Shown: in pieces, positions 28,272-53,277 of the stretch
How the letters are laid out: the number at the start of each line of letters is the position of its first letter
Position numbering within the stretch: position 1 is the stretch's first letter
NCBI RefSeq assembly: GCF_035083965.1
Contig: NC_089739.1
Span: 6,622,001 to 6,686,000, forward strand
Reading direction: 5' to 3'
Length of the DNA stretch: 64,000 nt
DNA from: Branchiostoma lanceolatum
Taxonomy: Eukaryota; Chordata; Leptocardii; Amphioxiformes; Branchiostomatidae
Notes under the pieces: model-generated
The model's database searches: none
The model's input: only the letters and a program-made list of their open reading frames with translations
Told to the model about the DNA's origin: nothing
Position numbers and translations under genes: made by a program

Positions 28272-28827
28272 TTACACAATCTTCTTTTGGCGGACTTTTC
28301 TCGGGATTGGTGTGCAAAGCTCGCTGATTCGGGCAGAAGCTTGAGCAAGCAGCGCAGGCCTCGGAACCTTGTAGGGGTCATAATCGTCGTTCCCGCCGCG
28401 ACTTTTGGGCCGTGAAAGCTGCTGCAACCGGATGGTCGCGATGGATGTTTTCGCGTTATCCGAGACGGCCCACTGTACGGTGCGGTTTGCTAGGAACTCC
28501 GGGTGCCATCGTTTCGCTTCTGCCAGTGTTTCCACGCGTGGCGTTGCTGTCGCTTTCATCGCGGCGGGCGGAATCTCGCTCCTCCACTCGCCCCAATCCC
28601 ACTCCGTGTCGTTTTTGATCTTCAGCTCGCCGTACATTTTCGGGGCAGCGAGTTGCTCAAGTCGCCCGGTGGCCTCGAACCGCTTCGCGCTCTCCGGCAC
28701 GGTGCTGTAGACGGATCTCTTGGGCTGGTAGTCTGCCGGGAGGGCCTTCGGTCGGCAGAGCACGTCAAGTCGAGGGCGAGGTTTGGCGCCGAGTGCTCCC
28801 AGACTCACTGCCCAAATAGGGGTTGGC
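28272..28827 (-). CDS. THEG-like exon 5
   Basis: Acceptor tattccttccag. The main coding exon of 185 codons: PTPIWAVSLGALGAKPRPRL onward, four or more THEG repeats, ending PRKVRQKKIV then TAA. Its high GC content makes long chance frames on the opposite strand. Confidence 0.93.
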
Positions 28828-31800
28828 CTGGAAGGAATAAAATAAATGAGCCTGTCACTATAAAAATCATATTATACTGTAGGATACCATAGTACATAGA
28901 CGTTACATCGATTCCATAGTAGTAATAGTACGTAGACGTTATCTCGAAGGGGATTCCATAGTACGTAGACATTATTCCGAACGGGAGCGGCCATTGGAAC
29001 ATCGAACGGCCGATCCCGTTCTCTGGTTTGAATAAAGTCAGTTGCTTGATAGACTTAATCACGAGCCATCGCGTTTGTTGATTCTCCTACTTCTCATATT
29101 AATTTTATACCATCAATACACTGATCCTATAACCCTGTCTATCTTGGTCAAATGCAAAATGAAAACATAAAAAATGTGAATGTTTGACGGACATGAAGCC
29201 ACTCTCTCATCGGTCCAACCGCTAATTGTGACGGACAGTCAGAATCGGTTTATATGGCAATTAGTCTTGCATTTGACTGTCCAGGGACATCTTTTCTGAA
29301 GTTCTTACTATGATCACTAGGGGAAGCCCATGTCAAGGTCCACTGTCCCTTATGGTGAAGTTAGTAAAATTGTAAACCATAACAGAGCAGTGTCAGGTAT
29401 TGATTATGTTTCATATTTAAATTCAAGGTACTGAATGAATATCTACCTGCTTAGGGCATGGGGAAAGACTACTGTATTAAGTCCAAATTTCAACGATGTT
29501 CAAATGTTTCCTTCTTATCCAAATTTTTCTGGTCAGTTTTGTTGTGAAAATCATGTCTTTTTCTCTCTAACCCCCCAAACATATATTTCTTCCCCTCCTG
29601 ATCACTACCGATATTCTCCTTACCTGTCTCCAAGATACTCAGGATGGAGATCCTTGACCTTGACCAGCGACAGTTGATGTTTGTTCATACCTGCAGATAA
29701 ACAAAAACCAACAAACAACAGTCAACTTCAATATTCTGTCTGGTTGAATTTCGGCTCTGTAACTATGGATGACTTGGTGCATGCCAAACATTACTTTTTT
29801 ATAGATAGTGAAAAATATGCAATTGTCCAAGAAGCTGATTAGGAAAGTGTTTTGAGTCCTTTTGGAATAATTCTGCCAGAATTAACGGACAGTAAAAATA
29901 AAGTTTAATCCCTTAAGTAATTTAAATACCGCCTGATTGGCAAAGAAAAAAAAGAAAAATGGTTTTATTTCCTCATCAAACTGGGGATGCTGTTGGTCAA
30001 GCTCGTGTGCCTTTTAGAGTTGAAAAATGTGTACAGTAGCACCATCTACTGGATTTTAAGAGTACTGCAGAACTTGTGAAAAGTTTGTATTACAAGGTTT
30101 GCAATCTCACTGCATGATGACAGGAACCTACAACAAGTTTTGAATCCCTTAATAAGAGGACAGAATTTTGAGTAAAAGTAAAGGAGACTGTAAAAGCCAA
30201 AAAGACATTGGAAATTTAAAGAACTACGTATCTTTCAACTTTTCAAAGGAAATATCTCATCTGTTGGTCCAAACAAATCCAAAATGTTTAAGTTGACATT
30301 CAAAATACTGAGTCACAGGAGGTGTCTACATTGTTCCGGAACTCTTTTGTTTTGGTGTTTCTTTTGTTTACATTCTTTAAAAACAGGTCACAGCTTTTCT
30401 GTTGAGCTGTAAACAAAATATTAGAATGTTCGCTTTTAACTTAAGTTGCAGAAAGTAATTTGGGTTGCATCACCTTGCAAGCTAGTGCTAATAATGAGAG
30501 AGAAAAATATTTTTGAAGAATTGTTTCAGAAGATGATAGATTCTTTGAAAGAACTTGGACAAACAGGGCCGATATGGGCCACCTGTTGACCAAGCCTAAA
30601 CCGTGTTGCTATCTTAGATGCGTCCATAAACACCGCTTTACTGTATAAAACCGGCTTAGGTTACTGGCTATTAAATAGAGGCACCTTACAAATCAATTGT
30701 ATATGCATCTCATTAAGAAATAGGATATCCGTTCACAATACCAACACCTTCAACTAATGAGTTTGAGTCAGTAGGATTCTATTTCTGCTGTGAGTTTCAT
30801 ATAGTTTTCAACCAATTGTTATTGACATCCGAGGTTCCAATTTTTGAGCTGTAAAGACTTAAACAAAAATCTTGTCATATTTCTGAGCCCCAAATTGTGT
30901 GGTTTAATTGTGTTTTTCTCTGATCTGAATACAAAATGATGTGCGAAGGCACTTATTTGATCGTTTGCCTAAAGAAGTTTTAAATACTGCTTTTAAGAAA
31001 CAATTTTGGTCATGAAGTACCATACTTTAACAAAATTCCTTTTACTCTTTTTCAGCCAAAAATTCTGTCTTTCTCTGACTTTGAAATGATGTCAAAAGCA
31101 CTGATAGTTTTGCGAAACACTGCTATTTCTAAAAAAGGACACAAATTTGTTCCAGTTCTAATGACATTTCGAGAAATTAGCAAACTGTTTCAGTGAAGCA
31201 TTTCTGGCGGGCTGTTTTGGGTAGTGTGGTTGGCTGGACAAGCGTAAGTTGAGCTGTGAATGAAACAGCAAAACTGAGGACTGGGATGTTTCCAAAACAA
31301 GGTGCTTTTCATTCAACTGTGAACAGAACTCACACCTTTTGAGACTTAACTTTAACCTTCTCCCTGCTTGCTTGTTCTCATTGAAATGTACACATTTTGT
31401 AATCTCTGTTACCGTTAGAAGTAAGACATTCCTGACATTAAGATATGCCACATATAAGGTACCAAGCTGCCGTTTCTAAAAAGTAGAAAAGTTTTAGGTC
31501 GTCATAAAAACTACAGTTTGACATCTTATGTGTGACATATCCTAATGCCAGGAACGTCTTATTTCAATCGGTAACGGAGGTTACAAAATGTGTACATTAA
31601 AATGAGAACGAGCGTGCTGCCTTTAACCAATGCACAGAAAGGCTTATCGGGGAGAGAGTTGAATAAGTAAGGTTTGGAGGGGTCGTTCTTTAACTCTAAC
31701 TACTAGAAATTCCATCACAAGTGTCTTTGTGGACTTGCAGACAGTGAAAATGATAGTAACAAAGGCTTTCCAATTTGAGAACTTGTTTTAAAGATTTTTT

Positions 31801-38857: not shown

Positions 38858-38990
38858 TTGATCGTTTGAGGGTTCAGAAAAGGACGACTTGTCGACCTAC
38901 ACGAAATAGACTCTAACCAAAGATCATCAACATTTTCAGTATTTCGTGTAGGTCGACAGGTCGTCCTTTTCTTAACCCTCAAACGATCAA
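38858..38990. mobile_element. Hairpin MITE, about 50-bp arms
   Basis: Left arm 'ttgatcgtttgagggttcag' to 'cctacacgaaata' and right arm 'tatttcgtgtaggtcgacag' to 'cctcaaacgatcaa' are near-perfect inverses around a loop of about 31 nt. No target duplication was identified. Confidence 0.75.
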
Positions 38991-39097: not shown

Positions 39098-39530
39098 TAG
39101 TGGTGTGGATCTAAACCCGAGTTTAGGTTTAGGTTCGGACTCGAGTCCAGAGGTTTAGGTTCAGGTCTGGACTTGAAAGTCCGGACCTGAACAATAATTT
39201 TGGAATATTTTTTCGTGTTACATGTAAAATTGCATATTGGCAGATATTTTACATGTAATTTGAAAACTATATATACGGAATTATATACAGTCGGTAATTA
39301 ACACAAAAGTTCAGTTATAAACACAAAAACAGCAATGTTTTAATATTTTTCTAGCGCAAATTTCACGATTTAAGGAAGGTTTAAGATTGTTTAAAACAAA
39401 AAGGAGTGTATGAGTGAGAGAATTTTTTTTCAAGTCCGGACTTGTTTCCAGACGTTTAGGTTTTTTTGGACTTGAACCTAAACGTTTTACAAGTCCGGAA
39501 CCGGTCCCGCCGGACCGATCCGCACCACTA
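39098..39530. mobile_element. hAT-like MITE with 8-bp target duplication
   Basis: The 433-bp element starts tagtggtgtggatctaaacc and ends 'gaccgatccgcaccacta'. It is flanked on both sides by GTCACACC (39090-39097 and 39531-39538). Inside, 'caagtccggacttg' motifs repeat in both orientations. Confidence 0.85.
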
Positions 39531-41104: not shown

Positions 41105-42240
41105 CAGTCAAACCTGTACAAGTGACCACCTCTGCAAAAGGACCACGCGGACATGATTTGTGACCACTTTTTGGTGGTGCCTTAGATAATTTTCACCATT
41201 GTCTACGGTTCTGGCATGTTTTAACATTGATGTTCATAAAGGTATTCAATTTAGGATACACTTGTAAGAGGACGAAGTTCCAAGTTAATTTTCTGCTCAT
41301 TTAAGTATGAATTAATCAGGTTAAAAGGTGTCTGTTAATATCAATTTTCTGAAGATTTTGAGGTGAAAAATATTTTCACTTTTGTGCTAAAATCTTGCAT
41401 CTAGTTAACTTGAGTAGCAAAATTAGTTAAAATAATTAAGTTAAACTGCAAATTGTTGAAGGTTGAAATGAAATGAAAAGTACAGTAATGTTCAGAATTT
41501 CACGTTTACTCCAATATTGACTATTCAAAATCTTTGGAATTTTTTGAAAATATCTTAATTTCCATGGGAAGATATCATAGCAGTGGTTAGTGATAGTGGT
41601 TGGGAAAGATTAAAAGGTGGTGAAACTATTTAAATATTTCCCTTCTTCCTGTTTACAGTTACAGTTACACCCACCTGTCTATGTGGTGACTCATGGAGAA
41701 CTCTGGGGGGCTCCTCTACCAGGCTCCACAGGTCACTGGAAAAATAGTTGAATTTTCTTGGTTGCAAATTGTACTCTCTGGCCATTTAACTTCTTTGGTA
41801 TGTTATCTACTATTCGGCCAAATTCTACTGTTTTTTCAGCGACTTACGGAGCCTGGTAGAGGTCAGTTTGGGGAAGCTTGGTTTAAATACGTTGTAGAAG
41901 GTATAGGTGTAAAGGTAAAGCAGTCATCCTTAACTGAGGTTAAGATGAAGCTTTTTCAAGTAGCTAGTGGTAGTGCAAATCAAAAAAAAAGATAATGAAA
42001 AATTTTCTCAGACATATTCTACCAGCCAAGAGAGTACTGTCGATTTGCATGTCATTTTTATGTCATCTCATACCATGAAGGATAGCCTGAGTTTGGGCTC
42101 AATAACCTCATTGCTTGACCTAATCAGATATTTTCCCCATTGACACAAGCCTGAAGAATCCTGTCACAGTGACCACCTGTTCACATAGTCCATATTCTAT
42201 CAGTCCTCTGAGTGGTCTTCTTGGGCAGGTTTGACTTTCT
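41105..42240. mobile_element. pogo/Tigger-like (TA target) element, with a nested MITE
   Basis: Begins after TA with cagtcaaacctgtacaagtg and 'accacc', and ends with the decayed inverse 'agtggtcttcttgggcaggt', 'ttgact'. Termini match the copies at 59248 and 61328. A second element (41713-41862) sits inside it. No transposase reading frame is visible. Confidence 0.7.
41713..41862. mobile_element. 150-bp MITE, CCTCTACCAGGCTCC termini
   Basis: Exact 15-bp termini cctctaccaggctcc and ggagcctggtagagg, continuing as an imperfect inverted repeat ('cactggaaaaatag' and 'ctgttttttcagcg'). The same family occurs inside the foldback element at 50433-50657. The open frame across it is incidental. Confidence 0.8.
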
Positions 42241-44127: not shown

Positions 44128-44246
44128 TAGCCTGGGTGCCATCCTATTTCTACCGGGGCTCCTACACTCGCTTCCCTCAAAAAAAAAAAATTGTTGAGGG
44201 AAGCGAGTGTAGGAGCCCCGGTAGAAATAGGATGGCACCCAGGCTA
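44128..44246. mobile_element. Perfect 53-bp-arm hairpin MITE, hAT-like, young
   Basis: Left arm 44128-44180 (tagcctgggtgccatcctat and on) and right arm 44194-44246 are exact inverses around a 13-nt A-rich loop. ACAATTTG flanks both sides (44120-44127 and 44247-44254), an 8-bp target duplication. Confidence 0.93.
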
Positions 44247-49013: not shown

Positions 49014-49426
49014 GTGTGAAAAAAATAAGCTGACAGAAAAAGATTAATCCATAGTAGAACAGGGGCTGGCAAAGGTTACTAAAACACCCCAAAACTAGCT
49101 GTTCAGAACGGTTACCAGGCTAGCATGTCTTTGTGGCCTGTGATATTTCACATAACTGGGCAGACTAGTTTATTTTTGGATGGTGCACCACTGAAGTTTG
49201 GTGTGAAAAAAATAGGCTGACAGAAAAAGACCAATGCTAAGTAGAACGGGCTGGTAAAACACCCCAAAGCTGGGTTACCAGGCTAGAGTGTATTTGTGGC
49301 CTGTGATGTTTCACATAACTGGGCAGACCAGTTTGTTTTCGGAGCGCGCGCCCCTGAAGTTTGGTGTGAAAAAAATAAGCTGACAGAAAAAGACCAATGT
49401 TATTAAAGTAGAACGGGCTGGTAAAA
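49014..49426. repeat. Tandem array (160-190-bp unit) interrupted by the foldback element
   Basis: Units start at 49014, 49201 and 49364, each with gtgtgaaaaaaataagctga, 'ggttaccaggctag', 'tttcacataactgggcaga'. The third unit stops at 'ggctggtaaaa' and resumes after 52736 as 'gtaaaacacccccaagctgg'. Confidence 0.85.
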
Positions 49427-49459
49427 TACGAAGCAGGAACTGTGTCAAAAATATCATAT

Positions 49460-49580
49460 ATATATCTTAAAAAGATGTAATTCTAAAACATATATGTTTG
49501 AGAGAATGATATATATATTTTGAATAGATAAGATTTCAAAACATATATGTTTGAGAGAATGATATATACTTTTTAAAACA
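49460..49580. repeat. AT-rich minisatellite in left arm of foldback
   Basis: Two units of 'acatatatgtttgagagaat', 'gatatatatattttgaatag'. The mirror array in the right arm (52545-52680) has three units. Confidence 0.8.
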
Positions 49581-49659
49581 ATTCACATTTTAAATCAATA
49601 TCTTTTTGAGTACAATACATATTCTAGATCAACATCTAAAAATCAAACATTTGTTGTTT

Positions 49660-49850
49660 CCAAAAACATGTCTGAAAGCATATTGTTGGCTAAAACATGT
49701 GTTCCCAAAACCCCTATCATTTCTGAAAGCATATGTTGTTCTCATAAACATGTGTTCCCAAAACCCCTATCATACCCGAAAACATGTTGTTCACAAAAAC
49801 ACGTGTTTCCAAAACCCCTATTGTTCCTGAATGTATATATTGTTCCAACG
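49660..49850. repeat. About 55-bp minisatellite in left arm of foldback
   Basis: Four units of 'aaaacatgtgttcccaaaac', 'ccctatcatttctgaaagca'. It is mirrored at 52265-52450. Confidence 0.8.
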
Positions 49851-50115
49851 CGGCGCCGAATCTGTGTCAAAAAGGTCTCGCACCAGGTTTACGGGAGCGT
49901 GTAAGTGTACCGAATATGCAAATCAGATCTAAGCTATACTAAACATGCTCCGTCACTTTATTAACTGAATCAGAACACATCGTTTTTTTATATTTTTTAT
50001 AATGATATCACGCTACTATCGTACATTTGTTATCGAAATGTTGCTGTATCTATGGCTTAGCCTTTTGTCAGTTCTCTAAGAAGTTACGAAACTCTGGTAT
50101 CGAGCTGTCAGCGAT

Positions 50116-50355
50116 ATGGCGACGTCACCACCGGGCGGGGCGGCGCAGCGGGCGGGGCGGGGACAAGGGTACCCGGCGATGCGGGGACAAAGGCGTACGG
50201 TACCGGGCGGACGGGGACAACGGCACCGACCGGGCGGAGCACCCGGCGGTGCGGGGACAGGGTTACCGGGTGCACCTGGCGGGTCGGGGTTGGTTGGAGG
50301 TTTCAGTTGGCCAACGTCCGGTATAGCGGCGGGGCGGGGACTTCAAGTGTGTTAG
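50116..50355 (+). CDS. CpG-rich 79-codon open frame, left foldback arm
   Basis: MATSPPGGAAQRAGRGQGYP and onward, Gly/Pro/Arg-rich, ending GRGLQVC. It lies in a sharply GC-rich island within an AT-rich element, with ATGGCG in good Kozak context. The mirror frame in the right arm is also open. It may be a captured gene start, an expressed short protein, or a by-product of GC-rich repeats. No known family is recognised. Confidence 0.3.
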   Translation: MATSPPGGAAQRAGRGQGYPAMRGQRRTVPGGRGQRHRPGGAPGGAGTGLPGAPGGSGLVGGFSWPTSGIAAGRGLQVC

Positions 50356-50432
50356 GGAACTTTGCAATTGGACCAAATATTCCTGATTCAAAACTTGTAA
50401 CGGTGCACACCCCCGTGGTAGTGCGATAGCCT

Positions 50433-50657
50433 CTACCAGGCTCCGCGGATCTGCTTTGAGACTAGCTACAAAGGTCAATCTCGGGGAAAGGGATAGCCTC
50501 TATAGCCAGGCTCCGCTGGGAAAATAGTAGAAATTGAGTGAATAGTATGCCCAAGTAGAGGTTGGTATGCCAAGGATAGCCAGCTATGCAAGGAAGTTCA
50601 ATAGGCAACCCACGTGTTAGGATATTTTCCCAGCGATCCGCGGAGCCTGGTAGGAGG
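50433..50657. mobile_element. Nested CCTCTACCAGGCTCC-family MITEs in the left arm
   Basis: A partial copy (about 50433-50492) is followed by a full copy (50493-50657) with termini 'tagcctctatagccaggctc' and 'gatccgcggagcctggtagg'. The right arm lacks it and retains only 'cctctggtagagg' at 51659-51671. Confidence 0.75.
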
Positions 50658-50659
50658 GC

Positions 50660-51649
50660 CTGCATGGGAGTATACGTAGTGACTACGAATTACGGAAAAT
50701 TTTTGCCACCGATTACGTTAAGAGCTGATTACGAATTACGTTAAATCGTGAGGCTTTCCAACCGACTTAAACACGTAACGCACGATTCAACTATCTAGTT
50801 CTGCGTCAAAACTATTGATTTTTATATTAATTGTGGTGACAATGAATCTATTGATGACCAGACTAAACGACTATAACTAAAATGAGTAGCCGTGACGGCG
50901 GCAGGGAATTCTGTATGGGAGGCGACGGCAAGATATTGCTGAACGTACGTTGAACACGTTGAGGCCGAAGGAAAATTGTGAAAATCTTGACCCCCTGAAA
51001 CGCTATATCATTGATTTTGAGTGCCAAATTTTGCTGGTACACTAAGCTATGTTTGATGGCATATCTATATATAAGTGAAAAAAATTCGCAAGAGTTTAAT
51101 GGTATGCATGGTGCGCGATGGCACGGTGATTGTAGGTGGGTCCGGGAAAATGGTAAAATCTCGACCCGCTCAAATAAATTTTGAGGGGCAATATTTGCAC
51201 TCGTAGTGAAAAGTACACAAGGGTTTCTGTTAGATCTTAGATTGTTTGCCCTCCCGACATATTTTCACCGGAGGCGTACATGTAACAATCGAATGTGGGC
51301 CCCAAGGCATGCACCCCGAGAAAATTTTGAAATCTTTACCCTCTGAAACGCAATTTCCTGTATTTTTAGGGTATATTTGGCTGGTAGTCTAAGCTATGTT
51401 TTATGGCATCTCTTTGATTGAAAAATACACAATGATTCCAGCTTGATATTCAGGGGCAACGCCCTCAGAACATTCATAGATTACGTTTTACGTCGCATAA
51501 AGGTAACTGCCTACGTTTCACGTAGAATCAAAGCGACCAATTACGCGTTATATACGGCCAATGTACTGATTACGAATTACGTTGATTTTGGGTGGATGAT
51601 TACGGATTACGAAGTCTAAAAAGGCCTGATTACGCCTTACGAAAAAGGG
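50660..51649. repeat. Centre of the foldback element
   Basis: 'gattacgaattacgtt' recurs at both edges of the centre. A block 'gaaaat-ttgaaa-tctt-accc-ctgaaacgc', 'taagctatgtt-tatggcat' occurs at about 50970-51080 and 51320-51430, with a decayed third at 51150-51230. No long reading frame. Confidence 0.65.
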
Positions 51650-51745
51650 CATGCAGGTCCTCTGGTAGAGGCTATCGCACTACCACAGGAGTGTGCACCG
51701 TTACAAGTTTTGAATCAGGAATATTTGGTCCAATTGCAAAGTTCC

Positions 51746-51994
51746 CTAACACACTTGAAGTCCCCGCCCCGCCGCTATACCGGACGTTGGCCAACTGAAA
51801 CCTCCAACCAACCCCGACCCGCCAGGTGCACCCGGTAACCCTGTCCCCGCACCGCCGGGTGCTCCGCCCGGTCGCTGTGGTCGGTGCTGTTGTCCCCGTC
51901 CGCCCGGTACCGTACGCCTTTGTCCCCGCATCGCCGGGTACCCTTGTCCCCGCCCCGCCCGCTGCGCCGCCCCGCCCGGTGGTGACGTCGCCAT
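51746..51994 (-). CDS. Mirror CpG-rich open frame, right foldback arm, 82 codons
   Basis: Inverse copy of the frame at 50116-50355. It differs by a 9-bp in-frame insertion (near 51880), which adds three residues and leaves start and stop unchanged. Confidence 0.3.
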   Translation of the reverse strand: MATSPPGGAAQRAGRGQGYPAMRGQRRTVPGGRGQQHRPQRPGGAPGGAGTGLPGAPGGSGLVGGFSWPTSGIAAGRGLQVC

Positions 51995-53277
51995 ATCGCT
52001 GACAGCTCGATACCAGAGTTTCGTAACTTCTTAGAGAACTGACAAAAGGCTAAACCATAGATACAGCAACATTTCGATAACAAATGTACGATAGTAGCGT
52101 GATATCATATTAAAAAATTTAAAAAAAAAGATGCGTTCTGATTCAGTTAATAAAGTGACGGAGCATGTTTAGTATAGCTTAGATCTGATTTGCATATTTG
52201 GTACACTTACACGCTCCCGTAAACCTGGTGCGAGACCTTTTTGACACAGATTCGGCGCCGCGTTGGAACAATATATACATTCAGGAACAATAGGGGTTTT
52301 GGAAACACGTGTTTTTGTGAACAACATGTTTTCGGGTATGATAGGGGTTTTGGGAACACATGTTTATGAGAACAACATATGTTTTCAGAAATGATAGGGG
52401 TTTTGAGAACACATGTTTTAGCCAACAATATGCTTTCAGACATGTTTTTGGAAACAACATATGTTTGATTTTTAGATGTTGATCTAGAATATGTATTGTA
52501 CTCAAAAAGATATTGATTTAAAATGTGAATTGTTTTAAAAAGTATATATCATTCTCTCAAACATATATGTTGAAATCTTATCTATTCAAAATATATATAT
52601 CATTCTCTCAAACATATATGTTTTAAAATCTTATCTATTTAAAATATATATATCATTCTCTCAAACATATATGTTTTAGAATTACATCTATTTTAGATAT
52701 ATATATGATATTTTTGACACAGTTCCTGCTTCGTAGTAAAACACCCCCAAGCTGGCCGTTGAGGACAGTTACCAGGCTAGAATGTATTTGTGGCCTGTAA
52801 TATTTCACATAACTGGGCAGACCAGTTTGTTTTCGGAGCGTGTGCCCCTGATAGAAATGCAGCCATCCCTAATGAAAACATCAGCAGGAATCACAGCTAC
52901 AGAAACAACCCTGACAGCTTGTCCTGATATTTCCTCACAAATCTGCCCACAAGCATGTCCTGAGGGTCTCTTGGGGTAACCAGAGATGGGCACTCCTGTC
53001 CCTCCTACTGGCTCTGTGTCCCGGAGGGTCAAATTGGGGTCAGACAGGACTGGTGATGTGGGGAAATTAGGGACCCAGGAGGCTTCCCTGGGGGATATAG
53101 AGTTTCAGCACTTGTAATGTGTGATTTATTGGGAGAGGAAGTTGTCAGGGGGTAAACCAGCTAATAGATGTGGGTTTGTAGGGATTAGAGGGAAGATGGA
53201 AAATGAAGATAATTGTACAGACTTCTGAATTGTGCTGTTTGTTTGGATGAAACATAGGATGAAGAAAGTTGAATGCC

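Follow-up and report, generated by a model that had tools for sequence, protein, structure and literature searches.

A foldback element of Branchiostoma lanceolatum with probable IS3EU/GingerRoot-type ends, inserted in a tandem array

The GingerRoot transposons, whose reference paper is said to be that of Cerbin et al. 2019, and the IS3EU families provide the closest described terminal features for the element reported here. According to the available text of PMC10045372, GingerRoot elements generate 6-bp target-site duplications (TSDs) and have mostly TA..TA termini, and in complete IS3EU families the termini are always TA..TA and the TSDs usually of 6 bp. The same text describes the transposase of the group as an IS3/IS481-related DDE enzyme without the HHCC motif. 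IS3EU families of seven rust fungi have 6-bp TSDs, terminal inverted repeats (TIRs) longer than 30 bp and ends of the form TAYGG..CCRTA (excerpt of PMC12730594). Two oyster tandem repeats are given as DNA/IS3EU in PMC8268682, in whose accessible part the word "foldback" appears solely in a reference title. No report of a foldback form of IS3EU/GingerRoot was found in the literature, and a weak search returned no IS3EU of lancelets among the literature matches listed.

The DNA analyzed is a 64,000-nucleotide stretch of the B. lanceolatum genome, hereafter the window. Its positions 49427-52735 are a 3,309-bp insertion, exact at both boundaries, that breaks one unit of a tandem array and is flanked at both ends by GTAAAA. 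The features of the insertion site are the following:

49110 to 49426, plus strand: tandem array with a 163-bp period, target of the insertion, its last unit disrupted
49421 to 49426, plus strand: left target-site duplication GTAAAA
49427 to 52735, no strand assigned: foldback element, 3,309 bp, termini TACGAAGC..GCTTCGTA
52736 to 52741, plus strand: right target-site duplication GTAAAA

Joining of the flanks after dropping one GTAAAA gives GGGCTGGTAAAACACCCCCAAGCTGG, in register with the intact neighboring unit, which reads GGGCTGGTAAAACACCCCAAAGCTGG. The length of the duplication is therefore read from the empty site, not from the repeat alone, and only 6 bp are allowed. The empty allele of the insertion site reads GGGCTGGTAAAACACCCC. 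Of 165 aligned bases, the disrupted unit shares 157 with its intact neighbor, and a further 16 bases are gaps; with the next unit it shares 152 of 175. An earlier note on this DNA had described a 3.3-kb foldback with a 6-bp duplication and an empty site readable in the split array unit; its coordinates are right to the base, the duplication occupies 49421-49426 and 52736-52741, and the joined flanks match the neighboring unit as it had proposed. It is very improbable that this structure is no transposon but arose by local inverted duplication or through an assembly error. Inverted duplications likewise yield long near-identical arms, but a simple one predicts neither a clean 6-bp duplication that directly abuts the arm tips nor an empty site in register with the neighboring array unit.

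The transposon has two long inverted arms organized as follows (tandem repeats and their copy numbers according to TRF):

49427 to 50439, plus strand: left arm, 1,013 bp; its pairing reaches 50451 when the nested insert described below is disregarded
49440 to 49451, plus strand: sub-terminal motif CTGTGTCAAAAA, outer copy of the left arm, a candidate transposase-binding site
49456 to 49568, plus strand: AT-rich 53-bp tandem repeats of the left arm, 2.1 copies
49672 to 49845, plus strand: 51-bp tandem repeats of the left arm, 3.4 copies
49862 to 49873, plus strand: CTGTGTCAAAAA, inner copy of the left arm
50101 to 50345, plus strand: G+C-rich (72%) block of the left arm
51662 to 52735, minus strand: right arm, 1,074 bp
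51756 to 52002, minus strand: G+C-rich (72%) block of the right arm
52238 to 52249, minus strand: CTGTGTCAAAAA, inner copy of the right arm
52290 to 52444, minus strand: 51-bp tandem repeats of the right arm, 3.0 copies
52534 to 52706, minus strand: 53-bp tandem repeats of the right arm, 3.3 copies
52711 to 52722, minus strand: CTGTGTCAAAAA, outer copy of the right arm

Going inward from the tip, the AT-rich 53-bp repeats of each arm are followed by the 51-bp ones, then by a plain stretch, by the block with 72% G+C and finally by a short inner stretch. One tip reads TACGAAGCAGGAACTGTGTC, the other is its exact reverse complement, and the first 41 bp of both ends are perfect inverted copies. 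The arms, correctly estimated at about 1 kb in the earlier note, are identical at 996 of 1,013 aligned bases. They differ by 17 mismatches (10 transitions and 7 transversions), five of which are clustered at 49977-50001. Alignment gaps amount to 61 bases in three openings, the largest of 51 bases. Repeat slippage probably accounts for this largest gap, since it is close to one unit of the 53-bp repeat near the tip, whose copy number is 2.1 in the left arm vs 3.3 in the right one. As in the foldback class generally, the middle is non-coding and lies between long TIRs that contain tandem repeats; members of this class are also expected in several dispersed copies. Elsewhere in the window, positions 38858-38990 hold inverted arms of 51 nt, 96% complementary and spaced by 31 nt.

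The 12-base motif CTGTGTCAAAAA is found twice in each arm; the left-arm copies lie 422 bp apart and the right-arm copies 473 bp. When the left arm outside its terminal 40 bp was shuffled 500 times, no piece of these 40 bp recurred as a copy of at least 12 bases, the longest having 11. By analogy with Galileo, whose internal repeats are reported as secondary binding sites in work cited in the available text of PMC4079207, the inner copies may act as secondary sites for transposase binding.

The middle of the element, between the two arms, has a composite organization:

50440 to 50654, plus strand: presumed original palindrome center, which starts (with the adjoining arm end) CCTCTACCAGGCTCCGCGGATC, ends GATCCGCGGAGCCTGGTAGG and resembles a hairpin repeat at 41713-41862
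50647 to 50654, plus strand: left target copy CTGGTAGG of the nested insert, matching the right copy at 7 of 8 positions
50655 to 51661, plus strand: nested insert of 1,007 bp with AGGGCCTGCATG..CATGCAGGTCCT as its ends; it carries ATTACG words and direct repeats that have diverged
51662 to 51669, plus strand: right target copy CTGGTAGA of the nested insert

Segment 50655-51661 looks like a separate element inserted into the palindrome because its removal restores arm pairing, as such an insertion predicts: without it and one target copy, the pairing gains exactly 12 bases and the arms reach 1,025 and 1,086 bases. The ends of the insert (AGGRCCTGCATG) are inverted, AGGGCCTGCATG and CATGCAGGTCCT being complementary at 11 of 12 positions. 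The two junction regions share by chance a second 7-base direct repeat (two were found), so the target repeat would be weak evidence by itself, and the case for an insertion depends on the inverted ends and the regained pairing. The hairpin-like symmetry of the center could itself supply the 12 bases, in which case the insert would still interrupt that symmetry. Inside the insert, 50971-51066 repeats directly as 51320-51413 (96 bp at 80%, lag of about 350). A single match of 31 bp at 84% links 50970-51000 to 51145-51174 (lag 175). We considered whether 50440-51661 is the element's own core and rejected it, since the ATTACG words of the element, 11 in total, lie within the nested insert and on one strand (11 vs 0) and since pairing is restored without 50655-51661. 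The hairpin repeat at 41713-41862 has ends CCTCTACCAGGCTCC that recur in the foldback center. Comparison of 50430-50654 with this hairpin gives a best local score of 37 in one orientation and of 28 in the other, against a largest score of 24 in 200 shuffles of one orientation; the likeness is confined to the ends and does not extend to the middle.

The longest stop-to-stop frame within the element has 133 aa. Thirty-four frames of at least 50 aa overlap 49400-52760, some extending into the flanks, and no coding domain was detected in the 16 of them scanned with Pfam, where the best score was 12.2 bits vs a cut-off of 27. One 61-aa frame weakly matched a baculovirus family (E 0.12, 12.2 bits); this was attributed to chance, as were further Pfam matches at E 0.34-0.58. 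The earlier statement that the element has no transposase frame thus stands for the frames scanned. Far from the element, a 199-aa open frame on the minus strand (28272-28871) has THEG repeats (Pfam E 3.1e-39) and is likely a gene exon.

Two groups of transposons were weighed against this coding content and the terminal structure. Descent from a Maverick/Polinton, of which the element would be a non-autonomous remnant, is quite improbable. Intact vertebrate Mavericks have 6-bp TSDs and TIRs, both present here, but their common end motifs are (AGT)2//(ACT)2 and (AG)3//(CT)3, with a further end type in one eel (accessible part of PMC8097293), and the element reads TACGAA..TTCGTA; in addition, the 16 frames scanned out of 34 hold no remnant of a Maverick gene. 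The chance that the element belongs to Dada is practically negligible. Dada duplications of 6-7 bp fit it in length, but Dada-U6 and Dada-U1 are reported without TIRs, and those of the element are about 1 kb; many Dada families reside in small-RNA genes (both points from the available text of PMC3706591 and PMC8869645), and no Rfam match to an RNA gene was obtained at gathering thresholds anywhere in the window.

Two other elements of the window have 8-bp duplications, read by eye. The first, at 39098-39530 in a CpG-rich stretch, has ends TAGTGGTGYGGATC and duplication GTCACACC; it is presumably a hAT-type non-autonomous transposon. The second is a hairpin at 44128-44246 (TAGCCTGG..CCAGGCTA) with duplication ACAATTTG and a 62-nt inverted match, 95% complementary and partly in the flanks, which we take to be a hAT-type MITE. 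hAT elements generally have the end pattern YARNG, which the end TACGA of the foldback does not appear to fit. It is unlikely that the element is a foldback of another superfamily making 6-bp duplications, most plausibly hAT6, or of Mutator or P type with an unusually short duplication. Several points speak for such an origin: hAT6 families with 6-bp TSDs, the length found here, are known (excerpt of PMC12730594), the window holds the two presumed hAT-type elements, Mutator is said to hold most foldback elements (accessible text of PMC4079207) and Galileo was assigned to P (available part of PMC3573991). However, the TSDs of Tetris, a proposed Mutator member, are of 8-10 bp (PMC4079207, same text), a length that the empty site, permitting 6 bp only, does not accommodate.

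The element is probably a non-autonomous foldback DNA transposon with IS3EU/GingerRoot-type ends, because the TA..TA termini (TACGAAGC..GCTTCGTA) and the 6-bp duplication (GTAAAA twice, plus the empty site) are the published terminal features of this group; the assignment is carried by these two features in one copy, of which the TA ends are a short signal. Its ends TACGA..TCGTA agree with the rust-fungus TAYGG..CCRTA at four of five end letters, and its TIRs extend over 1 kb. The earlier note had found no superfamily to which the element could be assigned and had ranked it as the best candidate for something undescribed. The first view is not supported, as the ends and the duplication match IS3EU/GingerRoot; the tips and 6-bp scar point to this known, little-studied group and not to an element lacking relatives. 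Dada, Maverick and foldbacks of Mutator type are poorer matches. Ginger1 and Ginger2 were set aside for their 4-bp duplications (5 bp in TDD-4 and TDD-5) and for the TGTNR ends of Ginger1.

A scan of the window for TA..TA termini, TIRs of 14 bp in which 12 or more positions match, and a 6-bp duplication returned five rows, namely this element and four trivial rows within the arms at the palindrome TATATA; the same scan on 20 shuffles gave one row in total. When any ends were admitted, the scan of the window returned at least 40 rows. The 20-bp terminus has two matches in the window at up to three mismatches, which are the two ends of the element, and none in 100 shuffles; no further copy of the element is present within the 64 kb. 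This terminus has no exact match in the viral_contigs and genome_contigs collections, which by description are without animal genomes and are uninformative on copy number. Likewise, arm stretch 49851-50439 gave no match in phage or plasmid collections, also without animal genomes. The 20-base end was found in none of the papers searched, and the 18 papers containing one of two 11-base end words have titles unrelated to transposons.

The arms differ at 17/1,013 positions (1.7%). This is less than the difference of the disrupted array unit from its neighbor (8/165, 4.8%) and also under the amphioxus heterozygosity of 3.2-4.2% (available text of PMC12500494). The CpG observed/expected ratio is 1.13 in the element vs 0.51 in the rest of the window, and none of 271 overlapping 3,309-bp segments outside the element exceeds 1.006. 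High CpG is no proof of youth, since 500-bp stretches above this ratio are also present elsewhere in the window. The low arm mismatch and the high CpG fit a young insertion; conversion between arms or absence of methylation would give the same picture. The idea that the arms are recent or gene-converted is thus retained in the form of young or homogenized arms.

A mechanism can be proposed for the element as observed, with its insertion, duplication, end sequence and lack of a detected coding domain. An integrase-like DDE transposase encoded by an autonomous relative elsewhere would recognize the TACGAAGCAGGAACTGTGTC ends and perhaps also CTGTGTCAAAAA. This enzyme would be of IS3EU/GingerRoot type and would mobilize the element in trans. 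The excised element would be joined to the target at cuts 6 bp apart, and repair of the gaps would leave GTAAAA on both sides. The arms probably grew by replacement of the coding interior with a copy of one end and also by slippage of the 51- and 53-bp repeats, and conversion between them may maintain their likeness. Either before or after the foldback last moved, another element of roughly 1 kb probably inserted into the center of the palindrome, as the restored arm pairing supports.

Galileo, a foldback-like element, differs from the present one by its 7-bp duplication and its P-superfamily transposase. Both share long, internally repetitive TIRs (accessible part of PMC3573991). Galileo is also reported, in the excerpts available, to seed inversions, and the long near-identical inverted arms described here may likewise do so. 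Tetris of Drosophila virilis resembles the element in its modular TIRs, which contain tandem repeats and reach 1,735 bp, in its variable non-coding middle and in having no known autonomous partner, and differs by its duplications of 8-10 bp and tandem repeats of about 220 bp (all from the available text of PMC4079207). Maverick/Polinton elements share the 6-bp duplication and the presence of TIRs, but their ends are commonly AG/AGT and they are coding, with seven or eight conserved genes (PMC8097293, in part). IS3EU/GingerRoot shares the TA..TA termini and the 6-bp target duplication, and the rust-fungus IS3EU families in addition inverted repeats longer than 30 bp and the TAYG start. The amphioxus element differs from the group in being without a detected transposase and in having 1-kb foldback arms, and from the rust-fungus families at the fifth base, which is G in these and A here. 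For annotation, "unassignable" elements with a 6-bp duplication could be placed by their TA..TA ends. We give even chances to the proposal that the IS3EU/GingerRoot lineage, with its integrase-like transposase, gave rise to foldbacks with 1-kb palindromic repeat-bearing arms, an origin separate from those in Mutator and P. If elements of IS3EU/GingerRoot type also take the foldback form, this architecture would be a repeated outcome of the loss of the coding interior, comparable across unrelated transposases.
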